Source: a virus. From it: DNA of 44,321 nucleotides. The notes under the pieces are model-generated. The model ran no database searches. It was not told where the DNA came from and saw only the letters and a program-made list of their open reading frames with translations. The stretch is taken from IMG/VR virus record IMGVR_UViG_3300008262_000697, positions 1 through 44,321 of that record. One strand, 5' to 3'. The translations under genes and the position numbers were made by a program. Positions 16,261-34,440 of the stretch are shown piece after piece. Positions within the stretch are counted from its first letter, which is position 1. Each line of letters opens with the position of its first letter.

Positions 16261-16289
16261 TTGACATGCAATGTTTGTTGATGTATAAT
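16261..16289 (+). promoter_or_regulatory. Sigma70-like promoter
   Basis: TTGACA (16261-16266), 17-nt spacer, TATAAT (16284-16289). TTGACATGCAATG is shared exactly with the promoter at 19249. Drives the second part of the tRNA array. Confidence 0.85.
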
Positions 16290-16383: not shown

Positions 16384-16458
16384 ACGGCATTCGTTCAATG
16401 GATAGGACAGCACTCTTCTAAAGTGCGAATGTGGGTTCGATTCCTGCATGCCGTGCCA
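16384..16458 (+). tRNA. tRNA-Arg (TCT)
   Basis: Anticodon stem GCACT/AGTGC with loop CTTCTAA, acceptor ACGGCAT/ATGCCGT, CCA encoded. Confidence 0.92.
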
Positions 16459-16625
16459 GAATTATAGTGAGATGACAGAATGGTAATGTCGCAGTAATGA
16501 AAAAACAAACACCACTTGGTGTCCACTGAGGAACAGTGGTACAACCAAAGACCTATGCCAACATAGGTGCACCGAGTGTAAGACAGAGAGATCGGATCTC
16601 CGAGGTCGCTAGTTGAAAAATTACT
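16459..16625 (+). ncRNA. Structured RNA element, multi-hairpin, between tRNA-Arg and a promoter
   Basis: No ORF. Hairpins: TTGGTGT plus CCACTG (16517-16529) with CAGTGG plus ACCAA (16535-16548), loop AGGAA; ACCTATG-CCAA-CATAGGT (16552-16569); GAGA/TCTC and CTAGT/ACTAG further on. The density of stems suggests a folded RNA co-transcribed with the upstream tRNAs. No known family recognised. Confidence 0.5.
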
Positions 16626-16645
16626 AGCAAATTGCAAAATAGTTC

Positions 16646-16674
16646 TTGTCTTGCAAGATTGTTTGAGGTATAAT
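16646..16674 (+). promoter_or_regulatory. Sigma70-like promoter with TCTTGCAAGA dyad
   Basis: TTGTCT (16646-16651), 17-nt spacer, TATAAT (16669-16674). CTTGTCTTGCAAGATT is identical to the promoter at 25902 and contains the palindrome TCTTGCAAGA overlapping the -35, a candidate operator. Confidence 0.85.
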
Positions 16675-16679
16675 AGTAG

Positions 16680-16808
16680 TTCTTCAAAAGTCCTCTCTAA
16701 GTCGTGTGTGAATTCATACGCATGAGGTAAGCATGGCATAGGATGTTGCAATTCGCCTACACACCTCCCATGCAAGCAAGTTTGGTAGTTCTTGATAAAA
16801 AACTACCA
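16680..16808 (+). ncRNA. Structured RNA after promoter, hairpin-ended
   Basis: A transcript from the promoter at 16646 would begin here. GCATGG (16731-16736)/CCATGC (16768-16773) encloses TAGG/CCTA, and TGGTAGTT (16783-16790)/AACTACCA (16801-16808) ends it just before tRNA-Glu. No ORF of note. Function unknown. Confidence 0.5.
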
Positions 16809-16812
16809 CTAT

Positions 16813-16887
16813 GCACGATTCGTCTATCGGTTAGGACACTGCCCTTTCACGGCAGGAAGAGGAGTTCGATTCTCCTATCGTGTACCA
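16813..16887 (+). tRNA. tRNA-Glu (TTC)
   Basis: Anticodon stem CTGCC/GGCAG with loop CTTTCAC, acceptor GCACGAT/ATCGTGT, CCA encoded. One nucleotide separates its CCA from the next structured RNA. Confidence 0.93.
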
Positions 16888-16888
16888 G

Positions 16889-17137
16889 ATTTAATTACAT
16901 TGGGTTCCCTAGCCAGTAGGTGACCTAGAAGAGGATAACCACTTGCCGAAGTGGCTCTTGCTAGGTTACATGAAAGATGGAAACGAAGTGGAGATCTACA
17001 GGGTAGATCGTTGATGCGGATACGGTGGTCACGCTGGAACAACTAGAAACGTAATGTGGATGATGACCAGTCGTGAGACGATCACGTGGTTAACTGTCGG
17101 GTGACAGTTGTTGTCAAACATCCCAGTGTAATTAAAT
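16889..17137 (+). ncRNA. Structured RNA element 2 with 16-bp terminal stem
   Basis: ATTTAATTACATTGGG (16889-16904) pairs with 17122-17137, one T.G wobble. Inside: CCTAGC/GCTAGG enclosing CCACTT-GCCG-AAGTGG; GATCTAC-AGG-GTAGATC; GGTCA/TGACC; AACTGTC-GGGT-GACAGTT. There is no ORF. It fills the gap between tRNA-Glu and element 3 almost to the base, so processing of the tRNA transcript would release it. No known family recognised. Confidence 0.75.
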
Positions 17138-17138
17138 G

Positions 17139-17264
17139 TGGTATTAGTTTTGCTGATGTAAGCCATGGGCTTGATCATGCCTGAGTAACTATGTACATAA
17201 ACGGTAAGTCTAGCTAGCAATCCCGTTGAGCATAGCAAATAGTGCGTCAGCAAAACTAATACCA
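17139..17264 (+). ncRNA. Structured RNA element 3 with perfect 18-bp terminal stem
   Basis: TGGTATTAGTTTTGCTGA (17139-17156) is perfectly complementary to 17247-17264. Inside: AAGCC-ATG-GGCTT and CTATG/CATAG enclosing AACGG/CCGTT, giving a probable three-way junction. It begins 1 nt after element 2 and ends 1 nt before tRNA-Tyr. No ORF; not recognised. Confidence 0.75.
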
Positions 17265-17265
17265 T

Positions 17266-17354
17266 GGAGAATGAGCAGCATTGGTGACTGCAGCAGACTG
17301 TAAATCTGTCCTCCTTCGGGATACCACGGGGTTCGATTCCCTGATTCTCCACCA
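17266..17354 (+). tRNA. tRNA-Tyr (GTA)
   Basis: Class II, 89 nt, anticodon loop CTGTAAA in CAGA/TCTG, variable arm CCTCCTTCGGGA type, CCA encoded. Confidence 0.92.
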
Positions 17355-18775: not shown

Positions 18776-19252
18776 ATGCGTAAAGATATCGATATTGATG
18801 AAGTGAAAGCATTCATCGAGGCACAGAGTCCTGAATCTAAGATTTATATCGGTGGTGACTCTGAACGATTTAATATCGGAAATGATTGGTACGCTGATTA
18901 CATCTTAGTTATTGTTGTTCATATTAATGGTAACAATGGTTGCAAAATCTTCGGTGAAGTGACTCGTGAGAGATGCTATGACCAGAAGAAAGATAAACCA
19001 AGAATGCGATTGATGAACGAAGTTTACAAGATTGCAGATTTGTATTTAAAACTGCAAGATGTTCTGGAAGACAGAGAAGTACAAGTACACTTGGATATTA
19101 ATCCAAATGAAATGCACGGATCATCATGTGTAATTAACGAAGCAGTTGGTTACATTAAAGGTATGTGTAATGTTGTACCATTTGTTAAGCCAAATGCGTT
19201 TGCTGCAAGTTATGCAGCAGACAGATACAAGTCATACATGCGTGCTGCTTGA
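18776..19252 (+). CDS. DUF458/YkuK-like RNase H-fold protein
   Basis: 158 aa. IYIGGDSERF near residue 23 carries the first Asp, followed by VIVVHINGNNGCKIF, VQVHLDINPNEMHGSS and NAFAASYAADRYK. This arrangement matches the YkuK (DUF458) family predicted to be RNase H-like. Position inside the tRNA array suggests RNA handling, but this is inference. The stop overlaps the -35 of the next promoter. Confidence 0.75.
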   Translation: MRKDIDIDEVKAFIEAQSPESKIYIGGDSERFNIGNDWYADYILVIVVHINGNNGCKIFGEVTRERCYDQKKDKPRMRLMNEVYKIADLYLKLQDVLEDREVQVHLDINPNEMHGSSCVINEAVGYIKGMCNVVPFVKPNAFAASYAADRYKSYMRAA

Positions 19253-19277
19253 CATGCAATGATTATTGACGTATAAT
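19249..19277 (+). promoter_or_regulatory. Sigma70-like promoter
   Basis: TTGACA (19249-19254), 17-nt spacer, TATAAT (19272-19277). Shares TTGACATGCAATG with the promoter at 16261. Confidence 0.85.
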
Positions 19278-33917: not shown

Positions 33918-33992
33918 ATGGATGACGATCTTACTAGATTTTTGATAGGGTTTATAATAATTGTAATTATAATTATTTTAATCTTATCGTAA
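33918..33992 (+). CDS. 24-aa membrane micro-protein
   Basis: MDDDLTRFLIGFIIIVIIII then LILS. ATG is 8 nt after the -10, so essentially leaderless. The stop abuts the acceptor half of the permuted tmRNA. Composition (acidic end plus one helix) is that of a small membrane peptide. Confidence 0.5.
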   Translation: MDDDLTRFLIGFIIIVIIIILILS

Positions 33993-34068
33993 GAATTGCT
34001 GTATGAAGCAATGAGAAAGGTGTTCTGGACGAGGGTTCGATTCCCTCCACCTCCACCATAAGAGAACT

Positions 34069-34149
34069 ATGACATGGGATGATATACGAAGAGTTAAAGT
34101 TTTACTAACATGTTACTTGTTAGTAATCTTTGCATTAGTTTTCTTATGA
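34069..34149 (+). CDS. 26-aa membrane micro-ORF in the tmRNA intervening segment
   Basis: MTWDDIRRVKVLLTCYLLVI then FALVFL. It begins 11 nt after the CCA of the acceptor half and ends 2 bases before the coding half, so it fills the segment that is cut out. It has a membrane helix after a charged start. No ribosome-binding site beyond AAGAGAA. Might be translated before processing; not proven. Confidence 0.4.
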   Translation: MTWDDIRRVKVLLTCYLLVIFALVFL

Positions 34150-34234
34150 TGGGGGTGACTAGGTTTCGACAGGGCAATGAGTAACAGAGTGGACAGCACG
34201 ACACAGAGAGTCGTAAAAAGTAAACAACGTAAAC

Positions 34235-34267
34235 GCAAACGACGCACAGTTCGCATTAGCAGCCTAA
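34235..34267 (+). other. tmRNA tag reading frame
   Basis: Ten codons plus TAA encode ANDAQFALAA. ANDxxxALAA is the beta/gamma-proteobacterial type, recognised by ClpXP/ClpAP. The stop lies in an AGCAG/CTGCT hairpin, as in bacterial tmRNAs. Confidence 0.93.
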
Positions 34268-34284
34268 ACACTGCTTAGGGTTTC

Positions 34285-34315
34285 GGTAGGTTTCCTCGTA
34301 ACAGAATAACCTACC
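34285..34315 (+). repeat. Hairpin GGTAGGTT/AACCTACC, copy 1
   Basis: GGTAGGTT (34285-34292) pairs with AACCTACC (34308-34315), loop begins TCCTCG. An identical stem is at 34616-34639. Both flank the small secreted gene. In the tmRNA this could be part of a pseudoknot domain. Confidence 0.8.
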
Positions 34316-34440
34316 ACGAATTAGTTAGTCTTTGCTTGGTGACAGCACCCGCATTCTCAGTGAATGCCTTGGACTGTATCGAAAGTGACGAATCTAATAA
34401 GAGGAAGTTTGTTTTTAATTTTAATCAAAAAGGAAATTCT

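Follow-up and report, generated by a model that had tools for sequence, protein, structure and literature searches.

The closest described counterparts of the RNAs reported here are GOLLD and ROOL, the small RNAs rnaC and rnaD of phage T4 and, as regards the architecture of a single loop, the kissing-loop RNAs of retroviruses and oskar. GOLLD (~800 nt) is a structured RNA in or near phage tRNA arrays and ROOL (~660 nt) is a phage or prophage RNA near tRNA islands; both form homo-oligomeric RNA-only cages, as seen by cryo-EM for GOLLD, that of ROOL being a nanocage (PMC12286853). T4 rnaC and rnaD, also termed species 1 and 2 RNA, are small stable RNAs that end the T4 tRNA array, with rnaD located one nucleotide from tRNA-Arg (NC_000866 annotation). 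Retroviral RNAs, for example at the HIV-1 DIS, and oskar RNAs are well established to homodimerize through palindromic loops, and the kissing dimers of MoMuLV and MoMuSV arise from GACG loops (PMC7357161).

The DNA analyzed here, hereafter the window, comprises positions 1 to 44,321 of IMG/VR virus record IMGVR_UViG_3300008262_000697 and stems from a T4-like phage (gp32-like SSB, T4 RNase H, tape measure). It carries 27 predicted tRNA genes and one tmRNA gene, the latter being a permuted phage tmRNA gene (33963-34358) that matches RF04321 and RF01850 and encodes the tag ANDAQFALAA. Between tRNA-Glu and tRNA-Tyr, the first-pass annotation had placed two adjoining structured RNAs that are set off from both tRNAs and from each other by single nucleotides and closed by a 16-bp and a perfect 18-bp stem, respectively. 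The coordinates (Table 1) and both stems were confirmed. The 16 bp closing Element 2 (E2) include one G.U pair; the 18 bp closing Element 3 (E3) are Watson-Crick throughout and are extended to 23 bp in the fold. Both elements are more stable than dinucleotide-preserving shuffles (z-scores of -4.65 for E2 and -5.34 for E3, with 0 of 200 shuffles equally stable in either case), and the 542-nt stretch from tRNA-Glu to tRNA-Tyr folds into four independent domains lying side by side.

Table 1. Features of the tRNA-Glu/E2/E3/tRNA-Tyr region (window coordinates)
Feature	Position	Strand	Remarks
Sigma-70-like promoter TTGTCT-17-TATAAT	16646..16674	+	upstream of tRNA-Glu; consensus match only
tRNA-Glu (UUC)	16813..16887	+	3' end UACCA at 16883-16887, complementary to 17139-17143
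Single G spacer	16888		between tRNA-Glu CCA and E2
Element 2 (E2), structured noncoding RNA, 249 nt	16889..17137	+	77 distinct relatives, covariation, CM matches; consensus model of 9 helices
E2 P1 5' strand, terminal stem	16889..16904	+	99.2% of cells paired; two-sided changes in 6 pairs
E2 P4 apical hairpin, G(A/C)CG tetraloop	16940..16953	+	GCCG at 16945-16948; GACG or GCCG in 73/77
E2 P6 hairpin, GACG-type loop	17072..17086	+	GACGA at 17077-17081; GACG-type in 69/77; E=0/100
E2 P1 3' strand, terminal stem	17122..17137	+	same helix 1 covariation
Single G spacer	17138		between E2 and E3
E3 terminal stem 5' strand, 23 bp	17138..17160	+	fold, covariation
Element 3 (E3, 'E3a' type), structured noncoding RNA with conserved core, 126 nt	17139..17264	+	73 distinct relatives, covariation, CM matches
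UGGUA	17139..17143	+	complementary to tRNA-Glu UACCA (E2 extension); also first E3 stem bases; mutually exclusive pairings
UGAUCA, first E3 hairpin loop	17172..17177	+	self-complementary here, not in every relative
CUAGCUAG, octamer in E3 apical loop, proposed homodimer contact	17210..17217	+	self-complementary
AGCAAAUAGUGC, conserved E3 core	17234..17245	+	
E3 terminal stem 3' strand	17243..17265	+	fold, covariation
Single T spacer	17265		between E3 and tRNA-Tyr
tRNA-Tyr (GUA)	17266..17354	+	one nucleotide 3' of E3

The promoter-like site listed in Table 1 could drive transcription of the tRNA-Glu/E2/E3/tRNA-Tyr unit, although sites of this type are about as numerous as in shuffled sequence. 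Two perfect 12/12 sigma-70 consensus promoters (TTGACA-17-TATAAT) are present in the tRNA region at 16261-16289 and 19249-19277. The 317-nt array spacer preceding tRNA-Glu (16496-16812) is kept in relatives, holds the TATAAT promoter-like site and is itself a candidate structured RNA; region 16456-16815 folds better than shuffles (z -4.0). Immediately upstream, window 16466-16495 represents the 5' half of a tRNA-Cys gene whose 3' half has been lost. Compared with the intact gene of L011 (5462-5536), ~131 bases are deleted, and no other tRNA-Cys is found in the window.

Searching with the RNase H-like protein encoded just downstream yielded 80 related loci, most of them with syntenic tRNA arrays, and further loci were added by DNA patterns. 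From these IMG/VR relatives, 77 distinct versions of E2 and 73 of E3 were obtained, many of them closely related and mostly residing on IMG/VR fragments; divergent extra E3 copies were recovered solely by covariance model (CM). E2 and E3 matched no Rfam 15 family at the gathering score. With the cut-off relaxed to E<=10, the region returned nothing beyond tRNA, tmRNA and chance matches (e.g. mir-19), in line with the earlier statement that neither RNA resembles a known family; a match that would reduce them to a trivial known element did not emerge either. At E<=10, the ROOL model gave no match to E2/E3 in the all-Rfam search and GOLLD (RF02032) gave none in the window, while the positive controls L018 and L049 were detected. 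With 249 and 126 nt, E2 and E3 also differ in size from GOLLD and ROOL. Like rnaD of T4, they lie flush with tRNAs, but rnaC is partly tRNA-like and both T4 RNAs do without a long closing stem. Homology to rnaC/rnaD was rejected: with filters switched off, the best matches of the E3 model were chance matches below 10 bits, the E2 model had no match in L249, and short strings in common with rnaD sit in a different structure.

Neither E2 alone nor E3 alone had a blastn match in 50,697 named phage genomes, and the matches listed for the whole region span tRNA-Glu only. When 84,980 bacterial and archaeal genomes were scanned with a pattern for the E3 core, the 19 matches were all due to chance and none was accompanied by the remaining motif. 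Within this sampling, E2 and E3 thus seem restricted to uncultured phages. We found no report of E2/E3 RNAs in the literature, in which a 2017 survey of 224 candidate RNAs was covered via its Rfam entries only. Judged by comparative sequence analysis, E2 and E3 are two distinct new structured noncoding RNA families carried in the tRNA arrays of uncultured T4-like phages. Their kind is recognizable, i.e. they are structured RNAs of phage tRNA islands, and membership in GOLLD, ROOL, T4 rnaC/rnaD or any Rfam family is excluded by the tests described.

Covariation among homologues, proposed as a check in the first-pass annotation, turned out to be strong in both elements. The curated E2 model comprises nine helices with 56 pairs in 41 sequences, and 94.1% of its helix cells are paired compared with 76.8% after shuffling; the covariation score amounts to 0.503 versus 0.184 for shuffled and <=0.12 for slid controls. 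Significance was assessed with an R-scape-like G-test of our own against a tree null (100 IQ-TREE AliSim simulations), which assumes one tree though array RNAs recombine, and pairs in five helices (P1, P4, P5, P6 and P8) reached E<=0.01; P8 had been missed by RNAalifold alone, as had P7, and both were entered by hand. Alternative central modules are swapped among E2 copies, and only helix pairs were counted because such swaps make linked unpaired columns covary. In E3, 20 of the 32 predicted pairs display two-sided changes, and the tree null is passed at E<=0.01 by the terminal stem, by P2 and by the apical-loop octamer. G.U cells outnumber A.C cells by 219 to 35 in E2 and by 147 to 10 in E3, and the strand under selection is therefore that of the tRNAs, i.e. 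an RNA. This asymmetry speaks against inverted-repeat elements at the DNA level that insert at tRNA ends, whether MITE-like or recombination hairpins, a reading to which the long near-perfect inverted repeats with their palindromic centre, the cassette exchange between arrays and the several insertion places would lend themselves. As E2 and E3 furthermore occur typically once per array and in fixed register, with conserved internal helices and core, we regard such elements as highly improbable.

The E3 core is near invariant, while the surrounding stem is variable. An arrangement of this kind resembles a ligand- or protein-binding core and could be taken to indicate a cis-acting riboswitch or attenuator for the downstream tRNAs. 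However, no terminator-like site was found on the + strand near E2/E3, the closed terminal stem leaves no room for a switch helix, and the tRNAs 3' of E3 differ among copies (Lys, Tyr, Asp, Cys, Gln, Glu). Selection on the octamer would also be left unexplained, and regulation of this type is thus improbable.

The loop of the third E3 helix contains a self-complementary segment of at least 6 nt in all 73 copies and of at least 8 nt in 67 of them. It is represented by 18 different sequences, which besides the CUAGCUAG of the window include GCUGCAGC, GUGGCCAC, CCAGCUGG, CCGGCCGG, ACUCGAGU and CUUGCAAG, and parsimony requires the octamer to have changed 26 times along the tree. Pair 77-80 ranks first and pair 75-82 second in E3 covariation, and pair 76-81 also has E=0. 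Since just two bases separate the partners in pair 77-80, it could not close within one molecule and would have to form between molecules, and the covariation of the octamer suggests homodimerization of E3. Relatives of E3 were first gathered by a sequence pattern that lies outside the octamer, and the divergent copies found by CM rather than by this pattern have the self-complementary segment, too. A survey of palindromes across all positions of E3 and E2 yielded nothing comparable outside the octamer, and sequence-varying palindromes like that of E3 were absent from E2 and from the E3b RNA introduced below, whose sequence set included reverse complements. Duplex energies of the octamers were computed for free strands and not within the loop. 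The first hairpin loop of E3 is often, yet not always, self-complementary and was therefore not used as evidence.

A self-complementary apical loop kept by selection is thus found in E3 only, and the proposed contact parallels those in HIV-1 DIS, MoMuLV GACG and oskar kissing loops. Kissing loops usually comprise six (or two) base pairs, whereas E3 normally offers eight and is an unrelated noncoding phage RNA; likewise, the contacts in GOLLD are a set of tertiary bridges, while that proposed for E3 is one palindromic loop. E2 may self-associate via its two GACG-type loops by analogy with MoMuLV, which uses paired GACG loops (PMC7357161). A compact E3 that lacks the first hairpin and has the octamer GCGGCCGC is present in L207 (1999-2094, - strand) and in L191, with no tRNA found in the surrounding 4-6 kb. 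Because of these contigs, E3 is probably more than an array spacer.

The association with tRNA ends proved closer than originally claimed. In all 64 copies located directly behind a tRNA (59 Glu, 4 Gln and 1 Leu among these distinct E2 copies), the E2 stem starts one nucleotide after the CCA. Beyond the other end of the stem, again at a distance of one base, 65 of 77 copies carry a UGG complementary to the CCA, and in the 11 copies that are not preceded by a tRNA, the flanks read CUA/UAG and are complementary as well; the single exception has CCA/GGG. This coupling of CCA/UGG and CUA/UAG is pronounced (Fisher p=1.8e-12, uncorrected for relatedness). All 73 E3 copies adjoin tRNA genes, most of them 0-8 nt ahead of one, and the UGG extension is seen in 25 of the 30 E3 copies directly behind a tRNA.

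These pairings are what would be expected if E2 acted in cis on the tRNA precursor, with its UGGUA masking the CCA of the upstream tRNA and thereby delaying or ordering maturation. The P15 loop of RNase P RNA pairs with the RCCA of tRNAs through a GGU. However, pairing is retained where no tRNA adjoins, and it seems that the helix rather than the CCA is selected since the CUA/UAG pairing persists there. Moreover, UGGUA in the window can pair in the E3 stem instead, as it does in the predicted precursor fold, and the E3 octamer would find no explanation. We therefore consider CCA masking rather unlikely. Similarly, the closing helices could be mere processing devices, comparable to the RNase III stems flanking 16S and 23S rRNA, that separate tRNAs and enclose a functionless interior, and helices of 16-23 bp flush with tRNAs, the CCA:UGG extension and the retention of the outer stem upon exchange of the interior are all compatible with that. 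Against it stand the near-invariant E3 core in a varying stem, the covarying internal helices, the other neighbouring tRNAs that do without such a device and the compact E3 of L207 in a contig stretch without tRNAs, and a role of the closing helices in processing only is unlikely.

The slot following E2 is variously occupied: 38 copies have E3 there, 15 have a different RNA of ~155 nt (E3b), at least three have one of ~195 nt (E3c) and 12 have other sequence, and in nine the slot is empty. In these phages, E3b and E3c have the outer stem sequence in common with E3. Neither of these two structured RNAs occupying the place of E3 (L003 7836-7992, L016 7710-7909 and others) has been named, and the E3b hairpin loop reads GACG or CUGAUCA. 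GOLLD (RF02032; 191 and 203 bits) resides downstream of E2 in L018 (1448-1910) and L049 (1317-1780), in both cases with a tRNA-Asn inside the match; in L049 it is preceded by E2, in L018 by both E2 and E3. From this common slot it might be argued that E2 and E3 are detached pieces of GOLLD. This is extremely improbable given that the permissive threshold brought no GOLLD match in the window either and that E2/E3 occur beside full-length GOLLD-model matches and mostly without any GOLLD.

Additional elements occur in the related arrays. A conserved ~205-nt spacer (AATCCCGTTACTATTTTCGTTAAAATAGCG...) after tRNA-Glu in L123, L137, L156, L176, L187 and L212 is possibly a further RNA family, and a short element (GAGGTTATAAACAAGTC...CTACCATA) lies between E2 and the next RNA in L033, L035, L144, L178, L202 and L211. 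Predicted tRNAs with anticodon CUA (called tRNA-Pyl) are found in L016 (8253-8329), L032 (4540-4616), L018, L033 and L042 and are possible amber suppressors in these phages.

Taking the alignments as a whole, E2 and E3 probably constitute two new phage noncoding RNA families that self-associate, are co-transcribed with tRNAs and are cut from the common precursor. They would be made within the tRNA precursor, possibly from the promoter-like site upstream of tRNA-Glu, and would fold as sealed domains therein. Release would take place at the stem bases, with RNase P cutting where the next tRNA begins and a tRNA 3'-end nuclease or RNase III generating the remaining ends; RNase III cleavage of the long closing helices would be an equally possible route. 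E3 would then pair with a second E3 through the octamer in a kissing loop, and the products would most likely work as assemblies of RNA only, similar to GOLLD and ROOL, which share this genomic niche.

On a broader and more tentative scale, the tRNA arrays of these uncultured phages may be islands of self-assembling RNA in which E2, E3, E3b, E3c and GOLLD are interchangeable cassettes that are freed from tRNA precursors and give rise to homo-oligomeric RNA-only particles during infection. The octamer provides a simple handle on whether RNA-RNA self-association is under selection, as it can be broken (CUAGGUAG being an example of CUAGCUAG with its self-complementarity lost) or rewritten. The docking of CCA to UGG suggests a direct tie between the E2/E3 RNAs and tRNA maturation, and with E2 and E3 two widespread, as yet unnamed families would join the small set of phage tRNA-island RNAs formed by GOLLD, ROOL and T4 rnaC/rnaD.
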